64,000 bases of DNA from Globomyces pollinis-pini. Its lineage: Eukaryota; Chytridiomycota; Chytridiomycetes; Rhizophydiales; Globomycetaceae. Numbering within the stretch: position 1 is the first letter of the stretch; each line of letters begins with the position of its first letter. A program made the translations under genes and the position numbers. The DNA lies in assembly GCA_025399215.1 (NCBI GenBank), contig MU621141.1:1-64000 (forward strand). The letters run 5' to 3'. Of this stretch, positions 25,134 through 62,909 are shown in pieces. The notes beneath the pieces were generated by a model. That model was given only the letters and a program-made list of their open reading frames with translations. It was not told where the DNA came from and made no database searches.

Positions 25134-25613
25134 TTAAAGCAAAAAGGAAGCAAAAACAATCGCAAATGCAGCAGTTGAAGATAATGGGAGAGCATTGTTC
25201 TTGTCATCTTTTTCTTTCTTATCAGTTTCGACCTTTGATACAACTTTTGGCTTCAAGTATTTGTTAACTGGGAGAGCAGCAACTTCAGCAATTCCTCTCA
25301 TTCCATTTGCACAATCAGAGCCGGAAAGGGAAGCATAGTAGAAGACTCCAGGAGTATCAAATGTCCATAGAAAGTTGTTTCCAATATCCAAAGAACCGGA
25401 GTCTTTACCATTTCTGACAGGTACACAAGAAGTAGCTGATTCCACCTGGGTGACAGTTTTGTCCTGGGATTGCATATAGAATGCCAAAGTATCACCAACA
25501 TTCAATTTTACTGAAGGCTTTGAGAATTTGATTTCATTATTCTGACCTGCAATAATATCCAAAGTACCAGCAAAGGCACTGGTTGCTAAAGTGAGGAGAA
25601 GTGACTTTTGCAT
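25134..25613 (-). CDS. Secreted cupredoxin-like, probably GPI-anchored protein
   Basis: 159 residues in one exon: signal peptide (MQKSLLLTLATSAFAG), a single plastocyanin-like domain (FSKPSVKLNVGDTLAFYMQ, VESATSC, TFDTPGVFYYASLSGSDC), and a C-terminal hydrophobic tail (STAAFAIVFASFLL) that fits a GPI signal. In copper-binding relatives a His follows the first strand and a Cys-His-Met cluster sits in the last loop. Here the first His site reads QDKTVTQ and the last loop reads SDCANGM, with no His, so the mononuclear copper site is probably lost. The two cysteines likely form a disulfide. Probable wall or surface protein; it pairs with the gene at 26245. Confidence 0.8.
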   Translation of the reverse strand: MQKSLLLTLATSAFAGTLDIIAGQNNEIKFSKPSVKLNVGDTLAFYMQSQDKTVTQVESATSCVPVRNGKDSGSLDIGNNFLWTFDTPGVFYYASLSGSDCANGMRGIAEVAALPVNKYLKPKVVSKVETDKKEKDDKNNALPLSSTAAFAIVFASFLL

Positions 25614-26244: not shown

Positions 26245-26706
26245 TCAAACGATCAAAGCTGCGATCATGAGCACAGTAGGTAGTAACGAAGCACGTAGAA
26301 CATTGGATCCATTCTTTTCTTCTTTAGCTTCGGCTTTGGAAACGGCATTAGGATTGTAGGCATAAGGATTCACTGGCAATTTCTTAACATTTACAGTGAT
26401 TCTTGAGTTTTGGCAAGAACCACCGATGAGAGAGGCAAAGTGATAGACACCTGGAGTGTTGAATTGTGGCATATTGTAACTTTGATTTTCGACTAATTTA
26501 CCAGAGTTGAAACCATTAGCCAATGGGTTACAGGACGAGTCAGAGTCCACTTGTGAAATTGAATTCTCACCTTGAGTGACAAGGAAGTAAAGAGAGTCTC
26601 CTTCATTTAATTGGATTTCTTTTCTGCTGAATGATTTGTCAGTGACATACACTTCAAAAGTAGCAGCGGTTGCGATCGATGCTTGGAGTAGTGTTTGTAA
26701 TTTCAT
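26245..26706 (-). CDS. Secreted cupredoxin-like, probably GPI-anchored protein, paralogue
   Basis: 153 residues in one exon: a signal peptide (MKLQTLLQASIATAATF), a plastocyanin-like domain with the same layout as the neighbour (SRKEIQLNEGDSLYFLV, VDSDSSCNPL, QFNTPGVYHFASLIGGSC), the shared sequence KKLPVNPY and a hydrophobic tail (ASLLPTVLMIAALIV) for GPI attachment. It lacks all expected copper ligands except one Cys: no His in the first loop and no Met after the last Cys. Same strand and about 630 bp upstream of the other copy, so a tandem duplication. Role inferred: cell surface. Confidence 0.8.
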   Translation of the reverse strand: MKLQTLLQASIATAATFEVYVTDKSFSRKEIQLNEGDSLYFLVTQGENSISQVDSDSSCNPLANGFNSGKLVENQSYNMPQFNTPGVYHFASLIGGSCQNSRITVNVKKLPVNPYAYNPNAVSKAEAKEEKNGSNVLRASLLPTVLMIAALIV

Positions 26707-28461: not shown

Positions 28462-28575
28462 TTATTTTCTTTTGTGAATAAATTGTTGAAGTTGGACTTG
28501 GACTTGAACCTGAGTTTGAACTTGAACTTGGGCCAAAGCAATGAACATGAGAGACTGGACAACAAGGAAATTCAT
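28462..28575 (-). CDS. Short secreted (QV)n peptide, outlying family member
   Basis: A 37-residue protein: MNFLVVQSLMFIALA, then Gln-Val repeats (one QTQ and one QLQQ variant) and an ending FIHKRK. The stop directly follows the KRK, so there is no RQG peptide tail. A TATA-like TATAAAAAG (minus strand, 28604-28612) lies about 30 nt before the ATG. It matches the first half of the family at 57-63 kb and may be a truncated copy. The long Leu/Asn-rich ORF on the opposite strand is its shadow. Confidence 0.65.
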   Translation of the reverse strand: MNFLVVQSLMFIALAQVQVQTQVQVQVQLQQFIHKRK

Positions 28576-37542: not shown

Positions 37543-38757
37543 TTATTTGAGTTGTTTTGCAAAGCTGTGAATGTAGCTTACCAACAAATCCACACCTTCA
37601 AGTGGTAGTGCATTGTACAAAGAAGCTCGCATTCCACCCACACTACGATGTCCAGCTAAGCAAATCATTCCCAACTTTTCAGCACCTGCAATGAATTGCT
37701 TTTCTAGATCTTTCGCAGGGATACCATCTTTGATAACACTGAAAGGGACATTCATCCTAGACCAGAAATCGGGGTTCACTACAGCAAACTTGTAGATATT
37801 TGGATACTCTTGCAGTGCGTCATATAACAACTTAGATTTTACATTATTTAGTTCAGCAATTTTTTCTAAACCACCAAGCGCCAATGCCCAGTCGAAGACC
37901 AATCCGGCAACATAGATAGGGAACGTTGGTGGAGTATTGTACATTGAACGATTATCAGCGTATGTTTTATAGTTTAGCATTAAGGGACCTTTTAGAAAGC
38001 AATTATCAAACAATCCTAAAGAAATTGTCAGTAATATTCGCATACCTATCAAATCGTTCCGAATTATTACTAAAGTTAAACCTGCAGGTCCGATATTCTT
38101 TTGCGCACCACCAAAAATTATGCCATACTTTGCTACGTCCACTTTTCTTGACGCAAAGTTGGATGACATATCACATACTACAGGGATCCTTTGATAAGGT
38201 AACTCATCAATGAATGTAGATGGAAATTCAACTCCATGAACAGTCTCATTGTCGCAGTAATAAATATATGTCGGATCGTCGCTTAATTTCAAGTTTTTCA
38301 GTGCAATATCACCATTGTGATTTGAACTTTTTGTATTCAATGCAATGTTCACATTAGCACCCAATCTAGACTCTTATCAAATCCTAAAAAAATACCTCTT
38401 TGCCTCAGCACTTGCTTTTTCTGACCATCCTCCAGTAACGATATAATCACAGGGCTTCTTTACATCAGTCACCAAATTGTAGACAACAGAAGAGAATTGT
38501 GTTGATGCACCCCCTGCCTTTTAGTCAAGACAATTAAAACCTTGCATAAATAGCACAGAGTAGTTGCTCGGAATAGATAATAAAGATCTAAAATCAGATT
38601 CAGCCTTTGCTAAAATGGATTCAAACGCATCAGAGCGATGAGACAACTCCATGACAGAACATCCAGTATTGTTGTAATTAAGAAGGTCGGTTTGAACTTT
38701 CTTCAGTACTTCAGATGGTAATACTCCAGGTCCTGCGCTGAAATTGAAGGTTTTCAT
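37543..38757 (-). CDS. Phosphoserine aminotransferase
   Basis: PLP enzyme of the serine biosynthesis pathway, converting 3-phosphohydroxypyruvate and glutamate to phosphoserine. It starts [18 protein letters not shown]. Introns at 38514-38540 (27 nt) and after SAEAKR (about 30 nt) restore [16 protein letters not shown] and [10 protein letters not shown]; a third, 30 nt, in-frame intron probably interrupts NDLIG. The PLP-binding lysine lies in [13 protein letters not shown]. The signature [17 protein letters not shown] and the C-terminal [17 protein letters not shown] are typical. The fit is full length, near 370 residues. Family match is unambiguous; I give no symbol because naming differs between fungi (SER1) and bacteria (serC). 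Confidence 0.95.
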
Positions 38758-38978
38758 TAAAATAAGAAATCACAAAACAATGAAATTGATTCAAGAGATT
38801 CTTGAAGTGGCGACCATCAGATGGAATCTTGAGATGAAAGCTTGGATGATAAACACTGGTTATAAGGAGGTATAGTATGGACTTTACCATATACCGATTC
38901 AATTGCTTGCTTTTAGTTTGATTTTAATCTTTCAGTAAATTGTTATTTTTTACCTCACAATTTCAATTGGCCACTTGA

Positions 38979-41865: not shown

Positions 41866-42108
41866 ATGAACTTCCTTGCATTACTCACTGTTCTTAGCGC
41901 CTCAGTCCTTGCCCAAGTCCAAGTCCAGGTTCAAGTTCAAGTCCAAACTCAAGTCCAAGTTCAAACCCAAGTTCAAGTTGAATCACGTAAATTGCGATTG
42001 AACAGACGCCGCGACGCTGCTGCCAAGGCCGAAGTCGAATTGGTGAAGCGTCAAGGTGAACAACACTCTAGCTACATGCGATTAGCCGACGAACCAATCG
42101 TAGCTTAG
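41866..42108 (+). CDS. Secreted (QV)n peptide precursor with KRQG site
   Basis: 80 residues, one exon. The signal peptide MNFLALLTVLSASVLA is followed at the cleavage site by Gln-Val repeats with QTQ interruptions, then a charged stretch rich in Arg (RKLRLNRRRDAAAKAE) holding several dibasic sites, and finally VKRQGEQHSSYMRLADE. Cleavage after KR would release a 22-residue peptide starting Gln-Gly. AATAAA lies 12 nt after the stop. No known domain. The basic middle section is unique to this member. Confidence 0.75.
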   Translation: MNFLALLTVLSASVLAQVQVQVQVQVQTQVQVQTQVQVESRKLRLNRRRDAAAKAEVELVKRQGEQHSSYMRLADEPIVA

Positions 42109-42462: not shown

Positions 42463-42639
42463 ATGAACTTGTTCAACTTTATCCTTGTTGCATTCGCCAT
42501 GGCACAACTTCAATTGCAATTGCAATTACAGCTTCAATTACAACTTCAACTCCAATTGGCTGGAAAGAATCATGTTAGACGTCAAGGTCAAATTAGTTCC
42601 AATCGTAAGTCGGAACGGGTATTGGATGTCGAAAATTAA
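42463..42639 (+). CDS. Secreted (QL)n peptide precursor with RRQG site
   Basis: 58 residues from ATG 42463. The signal peptide MNLFNFILVAFAMA is followed by about ten Gln-Leu pairs, then AGKNHVRRQGQISSNRKSE and the end VLDVEN. Leu replaces Val in the repeat because the hexamer is CAATTG-like rather than CAAGTT. A TATA-like CATATAAGAAT sits near 42417. Same plan as the QV genes; the two forms show the repeat drifting by codon change while the alternation of polar and aliphatic residues is kept. Confidence 0.72.
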   Translation: MNLFNFILVAFAMAQLQLQLQLQLQLQLQLQLAGKNHVRRQGQISSNRKSERVLDVEN

Positions 42640-43104: not shown

Positions 43105-43263
43105 ATGAATTGTTTGGTTTGGTTCTCCATGCTGTGTTTAGGAGTGTTTTGTCAATTGCAACTTCAGTTAGAGTCAATTGGAAAGATACATTTGAATAGA
43201 CGTCAGGGTGGTATTGTTAGTTTCAAAAAGATAGTAAAGGATCAGGATATCGTTACCCCTTAG
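43105..43263 (+). CDS. Secreted peptide precursor with short QL run and NRRQG site
   Basis: 52 residues. MNCLVWFSMLCLGVFC serves as a signal peptide, then only three Gln-Leu pairs, ESIGKIHL, and NRRQGGIVSFKKIVKD, ending DIVTP. It confirms that the signal peptide plus dibasic-QG layout is kept even when the repeat is nearly lost. It lies 465 bp after the previous member, on the same strand. It is too short for many gene finders. Confidence 0.68.
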   Translation: MNCLVWFSMLCLGVFCQLQLQLESIGKIHLNRRQGGIVSFKKIVKDQDIVTP

Positions 43264-47890: not shown

Positions 47891-48853
47891 ATGTTATTCA
47901 CTCTGGCTTTATCTACTCTCGCTTTTACTGCAAATGCTGCTGATATTGGCGCCCAATGTACTGCCGTTAACTATCAAGATTACCCTCTTTTCTTCAAATT
48001 AGCTAATGGTGCTATTGATGTACTAGAACCACTAGCTAACGAATTTGCTGATGAATTGGCCACCCTTTTGGGAGCTGGTACTCATCACATTCCCGTTGAC
48101 GAGGAATTGGGTGTTGATATGCTCTTTAACCGATACACCCTTCAAGATTTGACTGTCACTGATCTCAAAGTTGGTCAGTTCAATGTTGATATTGGCGAAA
48201 TTACTACCCCAAAACCTCAAGGTTTGGCTGGTAGCGTCAATATCAAAAACATTGCATTTGAATTCAAATCAAAAGCAACTGTAAAGAAATGCTTTAAATA
48301 TGTGTTTAAAAACTGGTGCTCAGTCTCTACCACAGACTATACAGTCTCTTCCAAGTTCGCCAATGCTTCTGGAAAGGGTTCCGCTACTCTCGCTTTAGCC
48401 ACTTGTCCAAAGTTACTCTCCTACTGCACCATCGATGCCTTCAAAAAGAACTTTAAAACCGTATGGGACATGAAATTCTATGACCTATTAACCTATGTTT
48501 ACCCAAACGGTGCTAAAATTGACGAACTATCCGTTGTGCTTCCTGAAAACCTTCAACTCACCTTCCTTACCAATGAAAAGAATACCTTTGAAGCTAAAAT
48601 CCAACAATCTTTAGAAAACATATTTTCCCAAGCATCTACTCATAAACTTTTCCGTGATGTTGTCCAAAAGTTAGTCACACAATTCGGTCCTACTGCTGCT
48701 AATGTCGTCATCAACAAAGTCTTGAGACAAAAGTTTTATGGTGATTGTGATGGATCTTTGTTGAAATACAATCGCGTCAATACTGATTCAAAGCTTTGTA
48801 ACATTGTCAACTTTGATGATCGCAAAATTACCCAAAAATCTTGCTCCAATTAG
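47891..48853 (+). CDS. Secreted protein, tandem paralogue 1 (possible lipid-binding fold)
   Basis: 320 residues without introns. The signal peptide MLFTLALSTLAFTANA is followed by a mature domain with six or more cysteines: IGAQCTAVNYQDYPLFFKLA, GEITTPKPQGLAGSVNIKN, VKKCFKYVFKNWCS, LATCPKLLSYC, YVYPNGAKIDELSVVLPE and the end FYGDCDGSLLKYN. The even alternation of short strands and long helices, and a Gly-Leu-rich core, suggest a TULIP-like (BPI/SMP) lipid carrier, but this is a guess from pattern. Strongly similar to the next gene over its full length. A TATAA lies 41 nt upstream and AATAAA follows the stop, so expression is probably high. Confidence 0.7.
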   Translation: MLFTLALSTLAFTANAADIGAQCTAVNYQDYPLFFKLANGAIDVLEPLANEFADELATLLGAGTHHIPVDEELGVDMLFNRYTLQDLTVTDLKVGQFNVDIGEITTPKPQGLAGSVNIKNIAFEFKSKATVKKCFKYVFKNWCSVSTTDYTVSSKFANASGKGSATLALATCPKLLSYCTIDAFKKNFKTVWDMKFYDLLTYVYPNGAKIDELSVVLPENLQLTFLTNEKNTFEAKIQQSLENIFSQASTHKLFRDVVQKLVTQFGPTAANVVINKVLRQKFYGDCDGSLLKYNRVNTDSKLCNIVNFDDRKITQKSCSN

Positions 48854-49528: not shown

Positions 49529-50509
49529 ATGAAATTATCTTTGATTGCTTCTACTCTTGCTATTACCGCTTCAGCAACTGATATTGGTGCTCAATGTACT
49601 GCCATCAACTACCAAAAATATCCATTGTTCTTCAAATTGGCTAATGGTGCAATTGATGTGATGGAACCATTGGCCAATGAATTTGCCGATGAATTGATTA
49701 CTTTTCTAGGTGAAGGTACTCATAAAATCCCTGTTGGTAAAGACCTTGACTTGGAAGAAGGATTTACTTTGAATGGTTTCTTCAACAAATACACTCTTGA
49801 AAGTTTCTTGTTGACAGATTTAAAGGTGAATAAATTCAATGTGGACCTTGGGGAAATCACTACCCCAAAACCACAAGGATTGGCTGGAAGTGTAAACATC
49901 AAGGATATTGCCTTCGAATTCTCATCCACTGCTACTGTCCGTAAATGCTTCAAGTATGTGTTCACCAGCTGGTGTTCCACTTCAACTACCACCTACAGTG
50001 TTGCTTCCAAATTCAAGAATGCTTCCGGAACTGGAAGTGCGACTTTGGCCTTGGCTAAATGTCCAGAAACTTTATCTTGGTGTTCTTGGAACGCATTTAA
50101 GAAAAACTTCATGACAGTGTGGGAAATGAAGTTCATTGATTTACTCACTTACGTTTATCCAAACGGTGCCAAAATCGACGAACTTTCAATTGTCTTACCA
50201 GACGTCCTCGATTTAACTTTCCTTACCAACCATCCTGGATCCCTCGAAGCCAAAGTTGAACAAGCTTTGGAAAATATCCTTGCAAAGGCCGCTACCCGTA
50301 AACCTTTCCGAGACTTGATTCAATCTCTTATCACCAAGTTTGGACCACGTGCTGCAAATGCTGTTATTAACAAGGTACTCAAGACTAAATTCATGGGTGA
50401 TTGTGATGGTTCTTTGGTCAAATATAACAAAGATCGTCCATCCGGCAAGTTATGTAACAATATTGATTTGGCTGATCAAAAAACTACCCAATTGGCTTGC
50501 CCATTCTAA
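49529..50509 (+). CDS. Secreted protein, tandem paralogue 2
   Basis: 326 residues, intronless: MKLSLIASTLAITASA signal peptide, then IGAQCTAINYQKYPLFFKLA and the conserved blocks EITTPKPQGLAGSVNIK, VRKCFKYVFTSWCS, CPETLSWCSWNAFKKNF, TYVYPNGAKIDELSIVLP and MGDCDGSLVKYN. Relative to the neighbour it has a short insertion (LDLEEGFTLNGF) near residue 80. Six cysteines align between the two copies, so the disulfide pattern is conserved. A tandem duplication with both copies intact suggests selection for dosage or for divergence. Function unknown; secreted. Confidence 0.72.
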   Translation: MKLSLIASTLAITASATDIGAQCTAINYQKYPLFFKLANGAIDVMEPLANEFADELITFLGEGTHKIPVGKDLDLEEGFTLNGFFNKYTLESFLLTDLKVNKFNVDLGEITTPKPQGLAGSVNIKDIAFEFSSTATVRKCFKYVFTSWCSTSTTTYSVASKFKNASGTGSATLALAKCPETLSWCSWNAFKKNFMTVWEMKFIDLLTYVYPNGAKIDELSIVLPDVLDLTFLTNHPGSLEAKVEQALENILAKAATRKPFRDLIQSLITKFGPRAANAVINKVLKTKFMGDCDGSLVKYNKDRPSGKLCNNIDLADQKTTQLACPF

Positions 50510-51384: not shown

Positions 51385-51933
51385 ATGAAATTGTCTACTG
51401 CCATATTTAATGTAATTATCACTGCTACTGTATTATCCGCGCCAATCGCAAAAGAAGAAACAGAATCGCATTTATCACGTCGCCAAGGTGGTGGGTTAGC
51501 GTTAGCACAAGGTATTGTTGGGATTGTAGCTGCTGCGAAAGCAAAGAAGGCTGCTGCTGCCGATGCCGCTGCTGCGGATGCTGCTGCCGCGGATGCTGGA
51601 GCTGCGGATGCTGATGCTGCAGTTGCTGCCGCTGCTGCCGCCGCTGATGTCGCTGCTGCTGGTGCTGCTGATGCTGGGGCCGTCGATGTCGCTGCTGCTG
51701 GTGCTGCTGATGCTGGGGCCGTCGATGTCGCTGCCGCTGGAGCTGTCGACGCTGGAGCCGCTGGAGCTGTCGACGCTGGAGCCGCTGGAGCAGCCGATGG
51801 AGCCGCTGCAGCTGCTAAAGGCAAGAAAGGTAAAAAGGGGAAGAAGGGAAAGAAAGGGAAGAAGGGTAAGAAAGGAAAGAAAGGAAAGAAAGGAAAGAAG
51901 GGGAAGAAGGGGAAGAAAGCCAAAAAGGACTAA
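51385..51933 (+). CDS. Secreted RRQG precursor with Ala-Asp repeats and (KGK)n tail
   Basis: 182 residues. Signal peptide MKLSTAIFNVIITATVLS, then APIAKEETESHLSRRQGGG (dibasic-Gln site), an amphipathic helix (GLALAQGIVGIVAAAKAKKA), a long Ala-rich tract with Asp every few residues, and a C-terminal run of Lys-Gly-Lys repeats ending KAKKD. The Ala tract contains two exact copies of a 39-nt DNA unit (51652-51690, 51691-51729) and a further shorter repeat, so it has grown by slippage. A strongly cationic tail on an exported protein suggests binding to acidic polymers, membranes or host surfaces. The opposite-strand FFPFF frame is its shadow. It has no intron. Confidence 0.75.
   Translation: MKLSTAIFNVIITATVLSAPIAKEETESHLSRRQGGGLALAQGIVGIVAAAKAKKAAAADAAAADAAAADAGAADADAAVAAAAAAADVAAAGAADAGAVDVAAAGAADAGAVDVAAAGAVDAGAAGAVDAGAAGAADGAAAAAKGKKGKKGKKGKKGKKGKKGKKGKKGKKGKKGKKAKKD
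51652..51729 (+). repeat. Exact 39-nt tandem repeat inside coding region
   Basis: Two identical 39-nt copies code for AAAGAADAGAVDV each. The unit is a multiple of three, so copy number can change without a frameshift. Confidence 0.7.
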
Positions 51934-52604: not shown

Positions 52605-52832
52605 TTCTATGTTCAGTGGTACTAATTGGCTATTGGCATACCCACACCTGAATAATGTTTCCAATAATCTAGTAAGTAATTATTTTTCCGTCCAATGACA
52701 AATGTACATGCCAATTCTATGTTCAGTAGAACTGATTACCCATTGGTATACAAGGCTCACTTATGTTTCCAATAATCTAATGAGTAATTATATTTCCGTA
52801 CAATGACAAAATAATGACACATATACATGCCA
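52605..52832 (+). repeat. Imperfect 110-bp tandem duplication upstream of KGK gene
   Basis: Copy 1 (52605-52712) and copy 2 (52715-52832) both start TTCTATGTTCAGT and share TGTTTCCAATAATCTA, GTAATTAT, TTTCCGT and ACATGCCAA in the same order, with many single changes. The second copy ends 57 nt before the ATG at 52889, so the duplication covers the likely promoter. Confidence 0.65.
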
Positions 52833-52888: not shown

Positions 52889-53149
52889 ATGAAATTTGCT
52901 ACTGTCATCCTTAATATGATCATCACCACTTCAGTGTTCTCTGCTCCCATCGCAAATGATAATCCTACACCAGAATTATCGCGTCGTCAAGGTGGTTTAG
53001 ATTTGGCAGCAAATATTGTGGGACTGGTAGCAGCGGCAAAGGCTAAAAAGGCTGGTGCAGCAGATGGTGCAGCACCAACTGCCAAAGGGAAGAAAGGAAA
53101 GAAAGGTAAAAAGGGAAAGAAGGGGAAGAAAGGGAAAAGAGGATTGTAA
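52889..53149 (+). CDS. Secreted RRQG precursor with (KGK)n tail
   Basis: 86 residues: the signal peptide MKFATVILNMIITTSVFS, then APIANDNPTPELSRRQGGLD, an amphipathic helix (LAANIVGLVAAAKAKKAG), a short Ala/Gly spacer and a Lys-Gly-Lys repeat tail ending KRGL. It is a short version of the gene at 51385 without the Ala expansion: the first 20 residues, the dibasic-Gln site and the helix all correspond. The two genes lie about 1 kb apart on the same strand and look like a tandem duplication followed by repeat growth. Confidence 0.75.
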   Translation: MKFATVILNMIITTSVFSAPIANDNPTPELSRRQGGLDLAANIVGLVAAAKAKKAGAADGAAPTAKGKKGKKGKKGKKGKKGKRGL

Positions 53150-54292: not shown

Positions 54293-54859
54293 TCAATTCT
54301 TTTGCTTTTTTGCCTTCTTGCCCTTCTTGGCTTTTTTGGCTTTCTTTCCTTTTTTCCCTTTCGTATCAGGAGTAGCAGCAGTACCATCTGGTGCACCAGT
54401 TTGAAGTTGGGCAGTTCGAGTCTGGACTTTTGTATCTGCCCATCCAACACGAACTTGGGCAAATCGATTATTCGTGGCTGTAAACCCAGAACAAGCAGCT
54501 GCAGAATTTAGAATCGGACCAATCGCATCCACGGCACCTTCATAAGTTGCTAGATTATCTAGATTGGTGGACAGAGTGGCATCATCAGTAGCAGCTGGAT
54601 TGCCTTGTTGGGTGACTGCCAATAGTTGCTCCATGGTGTCCAAGATTTGACTGGCTGCATTAAGTTGATCTTGACATGGTTGGGAATTTCCTACTCCAAC
54701 AGGAGTCACGGCTGCTGCATCTTTCTTTCCTTTTCTGGCCCTGGTGTATAAACGACGTCCAGAATATGATCGCCTTTCTTTTAAACCTGTTTCTTTGCCA
54801 GGAATTACCAATGATGAACTTAGAAGGGGTAGCACTATGAAAAGACAAGTATAATACAT
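54293..54859 (-). CDS. Secreted protein with two-Cys helical domain and (KGK)n tail
   Basis: 188 residues. Signal peptide MYYTCLFIVLPLLSSSLV, a basic segment with dibasic sites (KERRSYSGRRLYTRARKGKK), then a helical domain with two cysteines (CQDQLNAASQILDTMEQLL ... NSAAACSGF) and an end of Lys-Gly-Lys/Lys-Ala-Lys repeats. The cationic tail is shared with the genes at 51385 and 52889, but the domain is not. Helical domains of this type occur in small fungal surface proteins; I recognise no named family. Its head faces the EF-Tu gene. Confidence 0.7.
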   Translation of the reverse strand: MYYTCLFIVLPLLSSSLVIPGKETGLKERRSYSGRRLYTRARKGKKDAAAVTPVGVGNSQPCQDQLNAASQILDTMEQLLAVTQQGNPAATDDATLSTNLDNLATYEGAVDAIGPILNSAAACSGFTATNNRFAQVRVGWADTKVQTRTAQLQTGAPDGTAATPDTKGKKGKKAKKAKKGKKAKKQKN

Positions 54860-57422: not shown

Positions 57423-57605
57423 TTATTGATTAAGAATATCAGGCTCGGATTGAGCAACTAGAAGAGAATTGGAATCATCAGCAAGTGATTGACCTCTAGG
57501 TCCTTGTCGTCTTTGGAGATGGACTTCGCGGTTTTGGACTTGCACTTGTACCTGTACTTGAGCCAAGACAGCCATAGAAAGGAGAGCGATAGATTGGAAA
57601 TTCAT
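57423..57605 (-). CDS. Secreted (QV)n precursor with RRQG site
   Basis: 60 residues: MNFQSIALLSMAVLA, four Gln-Val pairs, NREVHLQRRQGPRGQSLADD and the end PDILNQ. The tail QGPRGQS(L)xxD is shared with the genes at 60495 and 62727. The C-terminal ILNQ belongs to the Asp-x-Leu-Thr-Gln group. Minus strand, one exon, with TTAAATA-type TATA about 30 nt before the ATG. Released peptide after RR: 27 residues starting Gln-Gly. Function unknown. Confidence 0.75.
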   Translation of the reverse strand: MNFQSIALLSMAVLAQVQVQVQVQNREVHLQRRQGPRGQSLADDSNSLLVAQSEPDILNQ

Positions 57606-58929
57606 TGAAAGAGATGCTTGATGGAATGGATGGATTAAATACTGCAAACATGTTCATTTAAATAGAAAAAATGATCGGAATGACGGAATTGTAGAAACGA
57701 AGGAAACACGAGGTATTCAACCAATTATTGTGGTTTTAGTCGAAGGATCTGATCCTGCAATGAAAGATTAGGCTAATTGCCAGTTTGATATTAAAATTAA
57801 TTGAAATTTGTACCATGATTTCATCTCGTATAATGACGTCATAGAGACACTGCAGTTGATTCGAGTCCAGTAGATGGACGACTTACAGTAGATAGACGTC
57901 CAATTATATTCAGACTTATATCTGTAATAACCCAGATCGCTCCCATCACTTCTGTTCGTAAAATTATCGAAATCCTCTTTTGAGGCTGAGTAACCTATTA
58001 TGTCCGGATCAATTAAAATGCGCCTACTCTTAAAAGCTAATGTTAAATCGATCGTCCAGTTTATGGATCGTGAAACTTTCTTTCCCACTACTCTGGGAAG
58101 CATTGGTGATTAACGATTACTAGCATATTATAGAGTATATGAATAAATCGACCTTGTCTAAAGTAACAAAGTGGTATTGAGATTGAAAACCATAACGGCG
58201 ATCGTAACAAACGTATTTGTAAAGTGCCGATTATTAGGGGCTACTTATAGGTGCTAAAAAAAGCAAACTTCCGTGTTTCAATCACCCTCAGTCTTGAAGG
58301 ATTAAAATGTTCATTCTCCAATATATTTTAAGAATAATACATCTATTCTATTTCGTAATTCATTGTTCTTTTCAACAGAATAACTTTCACCTTTGCATTC
58401 ATTGAACAAAGGACGTAGGTCGACATATTACCTTTTGCGATCTTACCAGAATCGCCAAACACCACCACGATGCAATCTTTCGACATTTCTTTTGATCCCA
58501 GGTGAGTAAAAGTTTCAACGCGATTGAAATTCGCAGATACATTGTACTTGATGCAAGCATGTATATTTTTGGAGTATATTGCCCTATTTTTACTGTATTG
58601 TTCATGTTGACCATATATAAACTTGCATATCAGCTAGTTATTACTCTTGCCTATTGCACAATACTTAACTACAATACTTAACTATTTATCGAGTAGCGTC
58701 AAACGTTCGCCTGTCAGCCCATTCGCAATATTTAAGGTTTAAACTCAACTGTAACTCCATAAATCAGATTGATGTTGCAAGGTGTTTGTTGATAATGAAT
58801 ATCATTGATATCTTTTGTGTGGATAATCACTCAGACAAAATTGGCATAGATTCATTGAATTCTACGGAATACAACAACATATAAAGTGGACCAAATTTAT
58901 TGCTTTAATATCAAATAAAAAGTAATATC
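57606..58929. other. Intergenic, no gene seen
   Basis: 1.3 kb with no supported gene. It contains a 13-nt direct repeat, ACAATACTTAACT, twice in a row (near 58659-58684). Confidence 0.45.
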
Positions 58930-59055
58930 CTAAAGTGCAACTTGACGTTTGTAATTGTGTTGTAAGCCTGGAGCAACTTGTACTTGAACCTGAACTTGAA
59001 CTTGAACTTGGGCAATTACAGCAGTAGCGAGTAAGAAAAGTTGTGGAAATTGCAT
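58930..59055 (-). CDS. Very short secreted (QV)n peptide with KRQV end
   Basis: 41 residues: MQFPQLFLLATAVIA, about six Gln-Val pairs, APGLQHNYKRQVAL. The dibasic KR is followed by only QVAL and a stop, so the tail peptide would be a tetrapeptide. Next to the full-length copies this looks like a gene losing its tail, or a minimal QV-only form. It shows the same start (MQF) as several neighbours. Too short for standard ORF calls but clean ATG, repeat and stop. Confidence 0.6.
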   Translation of the reverse strand: MQFPQLFLLATAVIAQVQVQVQVQVQVAPGLQHNYKRQVAL

Positions 59056-59565
59056 TTTTTAAGAAACTAAAAGAATCAGTTCTTTTTCAACCTTAAAAAG
59101 GATCACGTATCAAACTTGATCACCCATTTGGAAATATTAAACTAAGCATGGTTAAGAAAAGTCATGAAACATTAGCTATAATGCATACTTGAATATCAAA
59201 TCGAAATGATTTTGGTTGACTACTTGAAAAAAAAGGTCCCGTTTCGCGTTGACTTCCGAATTGAAAACTGACTCAAAAAGTACCAAAGTAGGTAGAGTTA
59301 TTAGCACAGTAGAAACTTATTTCTGGATAGAATAAAGAATGATTTACAGCTATGAAACACCATTAGATATTGATTCCCATCCATCTTTTGATATCTTCAA
59401 AAGCCACCAACATAACCCTTTTTTCAAACAAAGACACACAGACATTCCCTGAGTTGAGCCATTCCTAATTTGGACAATTTACCAAAGTAATGTTTCATCT
59501 AACCCATCGGGCTTTTAAGGAGTTCACCAACGTGATAATCAATTCCTTACTTTATTTTTATTAGA

Positions 59566-59739
59566 ATGCAATTCCTTCAATCTCTTATTATTCTACTTCC
59601 ATTAGCTGTTCTTGCCAATAACACTGTGCATATCAATCGTCGCCAAGGGCCTAGACCTAGTAGTTTAAAACCAGATACTTTCGATGCTGATAAGGCAGCT
59701 GCTATTGTAGAAAACACTGATGATGTTATTTCACAATAG
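59566..59739 (+). CDS. Secreted RRQG precursor without QV run
   Basis: 57 residues: MQFLQSLIILLPLAVLA, then NNTVHINRRQGPRPSSLKPD, TFDADKAAAIVENTDD and VISQ. The Gln-Val run is missing, but the signal peptide, INRRQG site, acidic FD, and Asp-x-Ile-Ser-Gln end are conserved with neighbours. This shows that the RRQG tail peptide, rather than the repeat, is the conserved part. AATAAA appears shortly after the stop. Faces the gene at 59945. Confidence 0.72.
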   Translation: MQFLQSLIILLPLAVLANNTVHINRRQGPRPSSLKPDTFDADKAAAIVENTDDVISQ

Positions 59740-59944
59740 TTTGTTTTTTATAACTTCCTTGTATTTTATTAACAATAAATCATTTTCAGACATAAACTAC
59801 TCTTTAAATATTTCAATGTTTGAGTAAATATCCAACACTAAGCCAAATGCTTCCTTTTAATTTTAAGTTTATACTATAAAGTTAATCGTCCAGATACAGA
59901 CACAATTGAAACAAGTTAATATAATGAATGTTAAATGCATGTGT

Positions 59945-60136
59945 TTATTGAGTGATCAAATCATCGGTATCTTTGATAGCTGCTGCTGCACCATTAGAAT
60001 CGAAATCTTCTGGGCCTAAACTGGAAGGAGGCCCTTGACGACGATGAAGAATAGCAGCAACTTGAACTTGAACTTGCACTTGAACTTGAGCTAAAACTGC
60101 ACCAGAGAATAAAACCAATAATTGTAAAAGTTGCAT
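59945..60136 (-). CDS. Secreted (QV)n precursor with RRQG site
   Basis: 63 residues from ATG 60136: MQLLQLLVLFSGAVLA, about five Gln-Val pairs, AAILHRRQGPPSSLGPEDF, then DSNGAAAAIKDTDD and LITQ. The tail FDSN...DDLITQ lines up with the genes at 59566 (FDADKAAAI...DDVISQ) and 60495 (FDSN...DDVLTQ). Opposite orientation to the neighbour, so the cluster is not a simple tandem array. Confidence 0.75.
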   Translation of the reverse strand: MQLLQLLVLFSGAVLAQVQVQVQVQVAAILHRRQGPPSSLGPEDFDSNGAAAAIKDTDDLITQ

Positions 60137-60494
60137 TGTAGATTGTTGAATGGTGGAAAAGGTTATCAATCTTTTCTTTTAAATGGATTTTCCGCGTGAT
60201 GGGTGCGGTTCTGTGATGCACTTGTGTCTAAAGGATCATCAATGAATGAAGGCACGTAGCTTCTGACTCGTTGCATGATTAGATGCCTGTGTCATATTGT
60301 TACTGCAAGTCACTTGGATTTGACGAAGGTACAGCATAAAGTGACGTAAATTAACCGCCAGATTTAGATTATTTTTGCTATTGGTTGATAGTCTGTCATG
60401 GAAATTTAATTCAAAAATTCATTATTCAAAAGAAAGCATACTTTATTATTTTCTATCAACTATAAAGGGTAGATACAAAGAACAAAAATGGCGA

Positions 60495-60695
60495 TTATTG
60501 GGTCAATACATCGTCAGAAGCGACTGCTTCAGAAGAGGCAATTGCATTTGAGTCGAATTTATCGTCTTGTAAGGATTGTCCTCTTTTACCTTGACGTCTA
60601 ACCAAATGAACAGAGCGAGCAGCAGACATACCAACTTGCACTTGAACTTGAGCGCACACTAAGGTAATTAACACGGTCAAATAAGAGAATTGCAT
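60495..60695 (-). CDS. Secreted (QV)n precursor with RRQG site
   Basis: 66 residues: MQFSYLTVLITLVCA, three Gln-Val pairs, GMSAARSVHLVRRQGKRGQS, LQDDKFDSNAIASSEA and DDVLTQ. A TATAAAATAA element (minus strand, 60737-60746) lies 42-51 nt before the ATG. Note a second dibasic-like KRG inside the tail, which could give further processing. Otherwise the same plan as neighbours. Confidence 0.75.
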   Translation of the reverse strand: MQFSYLTVLITLVCAQVQVQVGMSAARSVHLVRRQGKRGQSLQDDKFDSNAIASSEAVASDDVLTQ

Positions 60696-61039
60696 TGTTG
60701 TTTTTTGATGTGGGTTTTTTAAGTGGCAAAAAAAGGTTATTTTATAGGGAATGAGTTTGGGGAATCCTCCACCTCAACGATGAAACAAAAACCAAGGGCT
60801 TCATAGTCGGTCTCTTTTTTACCCATCGACTAAAAGGATGGATAAAAAGATACTCCGACCTTTGTCGGTCAACTGTCGGAAGTCGGAAGCTATTGAATTG
60901 AAAAAAATCAATTTCAAAAGGGACCTGTTTGAACTTTGGCACTTTGTTTCTACAGATTTAATTCAAGTCACGAACAAATCCTTCCATAGACATATTGTAA
61001 AAAAGCAAAAATAGATCCATGTAAAATCGAAATGAGTGT

Positions 61040-61303
61040 TTATTGAGTCAGTTTATCTTCACCTTCGTCGGATGCATTCAAAGTTTTGTCAGCGAGGCTA
61101 CTGATGTGTCCTTGTCGACGACCAAGTTTGCGAGCAGCGACTTGAACTTGGCGTTTATGAAGAGGGGCAACTTGAACTTGCACTTGATTTTGAACCTGGA
61201 CTTGCACTTGCACCTGTACTTGGACCTGCACTTGAACTTGAACCTGCACTTGGGCCATCACTGAGATCAACAGCAGCAATACATTCATGAGTTGGAATTG
61301 CAT
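61040..61303 (-). CDS. Secreted long-(QV)n precursor with two dibasic-Gln sites
   Basis: 87 residues, the longest QV run of the family: MQFQLMNVLLLLISVMA, then ten Gln-Val pairs, a QN break and three more pairs. A first dibasic-Gln site HKRQVQVAA is followed by a second, KLGRRQGHISSLAD, and the end EGEDKLTQ. Cutting at both sites would give three products. The (CAAGTN)n DNA run is the best slippage candidate in the window. Its opposite strand contains a Leu/His frame that is only a shadow. Confidence 0.78.
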   Translation of the reverse strand: MQFQLMNVLLLLISVMAQVQVQVQVQVQVQVQVQVQVQNQVQVQVAPLHKRQVQVAARKLGRRQGHISSLADKTLNASDEGEDKLTQ

Positions 61304-62226
61304 TTGAAATTAATTGGGAGAATTTGTCTTTGCCTTGATTAGGAAAAACATTCGGTATTACACAAGGTTGGGATTCAACCAAATGATTTGGTGACCGCAT
61401 GAACCATATGAATGAGAATCTTGTGTAAGCTTCGACCTCATTTATAAATTCAAATGATGAATCTAAGGCAGTCTAAATATATATCAAATTTCACAATCCT
61501 GAGCAAAAAAAATATATCTATTCGTTCGACGGACTCATAGATGAACACAATCAAGTCCATGAACTCAACAATATAAACTCACAGACAAAAGGTCGCTAGA
61601 AGGGTTCAAAGTCAATGCGCTGCCTTGGGTCAGAATTGATTGGGATTGTGGCTTGCCCCGATCTGAAAACTAACCAAACAGGGACCTTTGTGACTATGAG
61701 GGTCTTTTAACTCCACTTAAGTTTTGGTTTTTCAAGACTTTAAGAAAAATGAATACTCTTTTGACTAAAGCTCATTGAATTTTTTTTAGAGTAATATAAG
61801 TAACCTACAGTATAAGAGCAAATTCTGTGGTTGAATAGAACATTCACAATTCTTTGGTAGGATATTGGAAGCGCAAGATTAAACATTTCGCTTTCATTAT
61901 CAAGACGCATGAGAAGGTGGTGTGATAGTCATTTCTGTTGGCTCAATCAGGTAAATCGACCAAAAAAGTCGGCGGTTTGTCAGACATTACCAAAGAAAGG
62001 CAAATCGACTATAATTTAGTTTCATGTTGAGTAGATGCCAATCTTCTCTACCAGGGTATTGATTTCTTTACGGGCTCGCATTCATCTTTAGAGTTCTTTG
62101 GTCTCCAACTGGAATGACGTCTCTAGGACTCCGTAATCTTGTTCAAAGTGGTTCACTAATCACAAACATCAATGCGCATTCAACCAAATAGGAAATTGTG
62201 CCCAAATCACTTGTTTCAGTTTTGGT
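61304..62226. other. Intergenic, no gene seen
   Basis: About 0.9 kb without a supported gene, between the longest QV gene and the next plus-strand member. Confidence 0.5.
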
Positions 62227-62232
62227 TATAAT
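62227..62232 (+). promoter_or_regulatory. TATA-like box
   Basis: TATAAT, 41 nt before ATG 62268. Confidence 0.4.
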
Positions 62233-62267
62233 ACAAAGAATTTCCAACTCTTTTCGACATCTAAATT

Positions 62268-62453
62268 ATGTTCAACGTTGTATTTTTAATTGCTCTTGTC
62301 TTTGGTCAAGTCCAAGTCTCTGCTGGAGGTTCATTGACCCATATTAATCGTCGTCAAGGGCCAATTCATAGTTCTGAAGTTGCCAGTGCTCTATTGGATA
62401 GTAATTCTTTAGCCAAAGCAGTTGCAGGCCAAGAAGATAAACTTACACAATAA
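62268..62453 (+). CDS. Secreted precursor with short QV run and NRRQG site
   Basis: 61 residues: MFNVVFLIALVFG, two Gln-Val pairs, SAGGSLTHINRRQGPIHS, EVASALLDSNSLAKAV and EDKLTQ. The last six residues equal those of the gene at 61040 on the other strand. INRRQG also matches 59566. AATAAA follows the stop within 80 nt. It gives good evidence that the C-terminal DKLTQ is under selection. Confidence 0.75.
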   Translation: MFNVVFLIALVFGQVQVSAGGSLTHINRRQGPIHSSEVASALLDSNSLAKAVAGQEDKLTQ

Positions 62454-62726
62454 TGTGGATGAAGAAACCTTCACTGATATTCAATTACAACCAACTTCTT
62501 GTGCCAATTCATTGTATTGTACTTCCAAATAAATATTCAATTTGATTTCAATTAGTGTATTTGACAAGTAATGATTGTAGTTTTCGAAGCGTGTAAGTAA
62601 TGATTGCCTTTGTTCAAAGAGGATTGAGCATAGATATTGCTATACTTAGGTAATGAACAAACCAACACAAAAAAGGAGTATATTGAACAGCAATATATAT
62701 TACAATCAAATAACAACTTGAAGAGT

Positions 62727-62909
62727 TTAATTTACGACAGCTTTTGCAGTAGCTTTAGATTTCTTTTTAGGAGACTTTGATAAACTCTTGGCTGTTGAGT
62801 CTGAAATAAAGGACTGGCCACGAGCTCCCTGTCGTCTTGACAAATGGACAGGAGCAACTTGAATTTGAGCAAGCGTAGAGAATAGCAAAAGAACAAAACC
62901 CAGCAACAT
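62727..62909 (-). CDS. Secreted precursor with RRQG site, Lys-rich tail
   Basis: 60 residues from ATG 62909: MLLGFVLLLFSTLAQIQVAP, VHLSRRQGARGQSFISDSTA, then a Lys/Ser tail (KSPKKKSKATAKAVVN). It shares QGxRGQS with 57423 and 60495 but lacks the LTQ end; the Lys tail recalls the KGK genes. A TATAAATA-type element lies about 30 nt upstream (minus strand, 62937-62944). A hybrid-looking member linking the two tail types. Confidence 0.68.
   Translation of the reverse strand: MLLGFVLLLFSTLAQIQVAPVHLSRRQGARGQSFISDSTAKSLSKSPKKKSKATAKAVVN

Follow-up and report, generated by a model that had tools for sequence, protein, structure and literature searches.

The 64,000-nucleotide (nt) window analysed here (contig MU621141.1, positions 1 to 64,000 of the forward strand, assembly GCA_025399215.1) comes from Globomyces pollinis-pini (Chytridiomycota, Rhizophydiales), a chytrid isolated from pine pollen (PMC9381765), and carries a set of short clustered genes that probably encode a family of Kex2-type precursors, each with a single C-terminal core that would serve as a signal or surface peptide. 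This reading draws on the observed gene layout, the conservation of the cleavage site, relatives of two members and a kexin gene, from which we infer secretion, cleavage, pyroglutamate formation and the role of the peptides. All 14 open reading frames (ORFs) listed in a preliminary description of the window were found at their places, eight of them within 57,423-62,909 (6 on the minus and 2 on the plus strand) and six elsewhere. Genes are named below by their lowest coordinate in the window (Table 1), and one further member, at C241:3270-3458, lies on a second contig, C241.

All 15 genes start with a signal-like hydrophobic stretch, with a 9-residue mean Kyte-Doolittle value of 2.31-3.57; the cut of 2.0 applied to this measure is loose, as 98 of the 387 ORFs of contig C52, which bears the cluster, pass it. 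In most members the signal is followed by dipeptides of Gln and a hydrophobic residue (V, L, T, I), then by a KR or RR pair, which is found in 14/14 window genes and is a general feature of kexin substrates. We confirmed that Gln follows the pair in 13/14 genes, the exception being 28462 (ending HKRK), and that most of these sites are Gln-Gly (12/14; 58930 reads KRQV), as had been described. Directly before the pair, [VSTI]H[LI]x was found in 8/14 site-bearing genes. Three features go beyond the preliminary description, namely a common C-terminal motif, the gene on C241 and a Gln following the signal-peptidase cut. Seven members (57423, 59566, 59945, 60495, 61040, 62268 and C241) have tails ending in D-x-[LI]-[TSN]-Q, and most of these core members also have a QGPRGQSL-like tail start; the 62727 tail keeps the first end (QGARGQSF) and has no DxLTQ-like end. 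Gln would also be exposed by the predicted signal-peptidase cut in 12 of the 13 members other than the two GKK-repeat genes at 51.4 and 52.9 kb (sequences judged by eye). The originally proposed plan of signal, repeat, dibasic site and tail held for most members, but the two GKK-repeat genes lack the Gln repeat and their Ala/GKK tail is unrelated, the repeat of 28462 and 58930 is followed by practically no tail, and 59566 has a tail and no Q-V repeat. Reading of the flanking sequence by eye revealed no convincing intron-hidden tail for 28462 or 58930. Overall, the sequences support a clustered set of secreted-looking precursors whose dibasic-QG site appears to be kept as protein.

The occurrence of the site in such ORFs clearly exceeded chance expectation. 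On contig C52 (76,790 b), 15 signal-like ORFs of 30-200 amino acids (aa) contained [KR]RQ, 13 of them members of the family, and all 12 signal-like ORFs with [KR]RQG were family members. By comparison, 22 control loci (133,782 b), of which 20 were chosen for holding RRQG-like DNA and 2 were the rest of contig C241, gave one signal-like ORF with [KR]RQ and none with [KR]RQG, while 30 dinucleotide shuffles of C52 gave means of 0.5 and 0.03 such ORFs, respectively (maxima 2 and 1). At the site itself (four codons in 13 genes; 58930, with KRQV, was left out), synonymous differences reached 0.668 and nonsynonymous differences 0.083 per site of the respective class. Within the Gln-dipeptide (Q-x) repeats, 61 adjacent unit pairs were compared: the Gln codon differed 19 times, which is synonymous by construction as Gln was required, and the free codon after Gln showed 31 synonymous vs 14 nonsynonymous changes (31/45), a bias that speaks with moderate force against plain microsatellite growth. 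Gene-like flanks were also more frequent than in shuffled sequence: 6/15 genes carry TATA[AT]A between positions -90 and -20, against a mean of 1.17 and at most 4 in 200 shuffles, and 9/15 carry AATAAA in the 150 nt that follow the stop codon, against a mean of 2.8 and at most 8. It is highly improbable that these are chance ORFs or decaying low-complexity DNA rather than genes, an explanation that could point to the very short 28462 and 58930, to public proteins having been found for only some members and to two odd models among these, and that is contradicted by the shuffle and control-locus counts, the synonymous bias at the site codons and the relatives in a second Globomyces described below.

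The genome-wide distribution of the site was then evaluated at the DNA level. The RRQG-like pattern MGNCGNCARGGN, with CGN as the second codon, occurs at 58 places in the genome, 11 of them on C52. Because a reversed-pattern control is commoner (131 vs 58), the bare DNA count of RRQG is no evidence; the evidence is the location of the matches, those on C52 sitting in signal-like ORFs. Among the other 47 places, 19 start with a Ser codon and 28 code RRQG, and reading all 28 in frame yielded the C241 gene as the sole precursor of this kind. The KRQG pattern AARMGNCARGGN occurs at 182 places; among the matches listed (100), the 35 with a CGN second codon were read and only 41866 qualified. AGR as second Arg codon, 82 further KRQG places and spliced genes lay outside this inspection, and among the places inspected the dibasic-QG site in such precursors was found only on C52 and C241, which makes it look like a trait of these genes rather than a consensus for kexin cutting across the species. 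A Q-V repeat DNA pattern had 26 matches, 23 of them on C52 and the other 3 in two places that hold no such precursors. A recent segmental copy as the origin of the C241 member was considered and rejected, since the only parts of C241 that blastn matched to C52 were 479 b of MsrA-like sequence (72.7% identity) and 39 b of the precursor. Both contigs carry this MsrA-like gene (identified by eye; C241 1902-2374 and C52 75943-76421, 72.7% nucleotide identity) besides precursor genes, perhaps reflecting an old duplication of the neighbourhood.

Relatives were sought by a protein search with a profile of 12 members among the best 8000 candidates sharing most words, a set probably flooded by Q-V repeats. 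It returned nine proteins, two from G. pollinis-pini, two from Globomyces sp. JEL0801 and five at E 0.72-9.0 that we took as chance; nothing significant turned up outside Globomyces among these candidates, which is a weak negative. One of the proteins taken as chance, P0008 (112 aa, other source, E 0.94), has QVQVQVQ followed by LGRRQGTRQ and no signal-like start. Conservation of RRQG in relatives had been set as a test in the preliminary description, and the motif is kept in both comparable JEL0801 proteins (two genes): HDV02_000366 is identical to 57423 at 57/60 positions and HDV02_000369 to 62268 at 58/61. Four of the six differences in total precede the site and two lie in a tail. The 32-residue tail of HDV02_000369 is identical to that of 62268, and all 3 of its differences fall in the signal and pro-region, including Q16R in the Q-V stretch. 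Each of the two relatives is on a 42,581-b contig, probably the same one. The C241 member alone as protein query gave no candidate, a result that is unreliable since P0004 of JEL0801, which has the ten residues RRQGPRGQSL in common with it and nearly equal length, should have been found.

The two G. pollinis-pini models differ from our reading of the genes. BC833DRAFT_647655 (138 aa) fuses 60495 and 59945, skipping 334 nt that include the DVLTQ end of the first, and BC833DRAFT_619172 contains the 59566 tail with a different start. For comparison with the 334-nt skip, a phosphoserine aminotransferase gene in the window (37543-38770, minus strand) has apparent introns of only ~27-30 nt, as read by eye. 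In agreement with the initial statement that no named fungal family with this plan was known, no Pfam, PDB or profile-search family matched: Pfam gave only single-member matches for 12 members (E 0.028 or worse), PDB gave one match for the same number (E 0.34), and no paper on a chytrid peptide signal or on this gene family was found in searches of an open-access literature library.

The genome encodes a kexin, as judged from a gene on contig C72 with a P-domain (58.4 bits), an Asp-motif exon whose best PDB match is yeast kexin (E 1.8e-9) and a C-terminus in which a hydrophobic stretch is followed by YSEFEPL. In the processing that we propose, the signal peptide would take the precursor through translocation and its removal would expose the first Gln in nearly all non-GKK members, after which the resident kexin would cut behind RR or KR. 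Two products would be released. The N-terminal one would consist of Gln alternating with mainly aliphatic residues; the C-terminal one would be 18-34 residues long and free of Cys, start with Gln-Gly and, in the seven core members, carry the common end. Most likely, the C-terminal peptide acts as a diffusible signal or at surfaces, and the Q-x segment is a pro-region, which may have a structural role too. We favour the tail as the product because its ends are shared, because the 62268 tail is unchanged in JEL0801 and because the repeat ranges from none to long.

An alternative explanation, which we regard as possible but doubtful, is that the Q-x fragment is the working product, stacking as beta-strands into wall, sporangium or adhesive material once freed by signal removal and Kex2, with the QG tail serving as a solubilising pro-piece until its removal. 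The alternating pattern of Gln and V, L or T does persist despite codon variation, and 28462 and 58930 retain the repeat without a real tail. However, the length of the repeat is highly variable and 59566 has none, core tails have both ends in common, and in the JEL0801 relative of 62268 it is the Q-V stretch that is altered (Q16R).

The tails themselves were compared for composition. None of those scored contains Cys, and 9/11 have a net charge <=0 (59566 and the GKK genes were outside the scoring), 62727 being strongly basic (+7). It is improbable that the tails are antimicrobial or host-directed peptides against competitors, pollen or algae, as the basic 62727 tail and the Lys-rich GKK proteins might suggest, given that most scored tails are neutral or acidic and Cys-free. 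Mating or aggregation signals with a role like that of alpha-pheromones, the paralogues representing different specificities, would fit short Cys-free tails with a divergent middle and constrained ends as well as the presence of several clustered paralogues; we consider this unlikely, as a repeated core and XA/XP spacers are absent. The STE2 receptor (PF02116) had no match in the genome and equally none in 14 control genomes (0/14), which makes the result uninformative, with STE3 outside the search.

Several observations weigh against the favoured reading of the genes. 28462 and 58930 keep the repeat without a real tail and 59566 keeps a tail without the Q-V repeat, leaving it unsettled which part is the product, and 2/3 of the differences between HDV02_000366 and 57423 lie in the tail. 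The ratio of nonsynonymous to synonymous proportions (pN/pS) of the tails, 0.39-1.29 over 28 pairs of eight core paralogues, speaks weakly at best for constraint, and tail dN/dS takes no firm value because the paralogues are too diverged and synonymous sites are near saturation (pS up to 0.92). TATA[AT]A is absent from the tested stretch in 9/15 genes and AATAAA in 6/15, and a structure model of the family profile was of low confidence (mean predicted local distance difference test score, pLDDT, 64.8; predicted template modelling score, pTM, 0.29). At processed yeast Kex2 sites, acidic or small residues are over-represented at P1', P2' and P4' (PMC2515848); Gly at P2' fits this preference and Gln at P1' does not. 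The genome gave no match to Glu_cyclase_2 (PF05096), and reading of all 11 loci that hold M28 exon matches (16 matches) revealed none that was cyclase-like by its sequence signatures. This does not prove that the genome is without a cyclase, because homologues of the Neurospora enzymes are reported in Chytridiomycota (PMC5241404). The Neurospora glutaminyl cyclases are in the endoplasmic reticulum (ER), and the authors of that study argue that Gln exposed by KEX2 in the Golgi would escape the ER enzyme (PMC5241404), which argues against enzymatic pyroglutamate at RR/QG and not at the signal-peptidase cut. Kex2-derived peptides starting with Gln were found as pyroglutamate in Coprinopsis cinerea, and pyroglutamate also forms in Pichia, which is described as having no cyclase homologue; Gln can also cyclise spontaneously (PMC9769878).

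The two GKK-repeat genes are, by their sequences, a separate family with the same site. Their proteins are 65% identical over query residues 1-65, have GKK and Ala-rich repeats in place of the Gln repeat, and share only the signal layout and [HE]LSRRQGG with the Q-x genes, features that could reflect common origin or convergence. No further genome match was obtained in this comparison at E up to 10, and the sole Pfam match of 51385, to collagen via the GKK repeat, was below the cut-off. For the ORF that opens at 52814 (plus strand), the likely true start is the ATG at 52889. A secreted-looking protein encoded at 54293-54859 (minus strand) ends in GKK/AKK repeats like those of the pair and has no RRQG.

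Table 1 Precursor genes of the window, with coordinates, strand, predicted layout and basis (a slash marks the predicted Kex2 cut).
Coordinates	Strand	Predicted product	Basis
57423..57605	-	precursor, 60 aa; signal, QV repeat, HLQ-RR/QGPRGQSL...DILNQ	ORF reading; JEL0801 relative HDV02_000366
58930..59055	-	precursor, 41 aa; signal, QV repeat, KR/QVAL, practically no tail	ORF reading
59566..59739	+	precursor, 57 aa; signal, no QV repeat, HIN-RR/QGPRPSSL...DVISQ	ORF reading; tail in BC833DRAFT_619172
59945..60136	-	precursor, 63 aa; signal, QV repeat, RR/QGPPSSL...DLITQ	ORF reading; second half of BC833DRAFT_647655
60495..60695	-	precursor, 66 aa; signal, QV repeat, HLV-RR/QGKRGQSL...DVLTQ	ORF reading; first half of BC833DRAFT_647655
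61040..61303	-	precursor, 87 aa; signal, long QV repeat, extra KR/QVQV site, RR/QGHISSL...DKLTQ	ORF reading
62268..62453	+	precursor, 61 aa; signal, QVQV, HIN-RR/QGPIHSS...DKLTQ	ORF reading; JEL0801 relative HDV02_000369
62727..62909	-	precursor, 60 aa; signal, QIQV, HLS-RR/QGARGQSF..., basic tail without DxLTQ-like end	ORF reading
41866..42108	+	divergent member, 80 aa; signal, QV/QT repeat, RRR and KR/QGEQHSS sites	ORF reading
42463..42639	+	divergent member, 58 aa; signal, QL repeat, HV-RR/QGQISS	ORF reading
43105..43263	+	divergent member, 52 aa; signal, short QL repeat, HLN-RR/QGGIVSF	ORF reading
28462..28575	-	37 aa; signal and Q-x repeat ending HKRK, no tail	ORF reading
51385..51933	+	second family, 182 aa; signal, HLS-RR/QGG, Ala-rich repeat, GKK repeat	ORF reading
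52889..53149	+	second family, 86 aa; signal, ELS-RR/QGG, Ala-rich, GKK repeat	paralogue of 51385

Other secreted-looking pairs were seen in the window. Two paralogues at 47891-48853 and 49529-50509 (plus strand) are 69% identical; the 49529 protein had no Pfam match, no relatives beyond this pair among 2411 candidates and a structure model too poor to use (pLDDT 35.1). A small pair with hydrophobic C-termini lies at 25134-25613 and 26245-26706 (minus strand), and the 25134 protein, the only member of the pair scanned, had a plastocyanin-like Pfam match below the cut-off.

Similar to Kex2-processed repeat proteins (KEPs), the precursors have a signal peptide, dibasic Kex2 sites and short secreted peptides as predicted products (PMC6339444, PMC7329392, PMC9769878). 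One definition requires of a KEP three or more tandem repeats, each 8 aa or longer and lying between Kex2 sites (PMC7329392); a looser rule asks for at least 4 fragments, not counting the C-terminal part (PMC6339444). In contrast, each Q-x gene encodes a single core, located C-terminally, and its repeat is a dipeptide in the pro-region; none of the 15 sequences, when read, showed a core repeated between sites, and the Q-x genes fall outside both definitions. Under the looser rule, the GKK genes might qualify through their KK sites (PMC6339444). Ascomycete alpha-type pheromone precursors likewise combine a signal, a pro-region, a Kex2 site and a small linear peptide, but multiple cores and STE13-type XA/XP spacers, as described for those precursors (PMC7329392), are absent here and a dipeptide repeat precedes the site. 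Two fungal surveys of Kex2 peptides demand repeated cores in their definitions, and single-core families like this one would escape them for this reason (PMC7329392, PMC6339444).

Single-core prohormone-type precursors free one core at a dibasic site and have an N-terminal Gln, as here, although no sequence relation to them was found in the profile, Pfam and PDB searches. The genes of G. pollinis-pini are best read as a clustered, diversified chytrid set of putative Kex2-type precursors with a single core. Public models of such small genes can err, as two members were fused and one was given a different start. It is conceivable, if speculative, that the Gln-Gly peptides constitute a paralogue-diversified signalling system of a zoosporic chytrid, serving attraction, settlement or mating, with both fragments starting with Gln in most members. 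If the peptides are made, they would be short, synthesizable candidates in a saprotroph.

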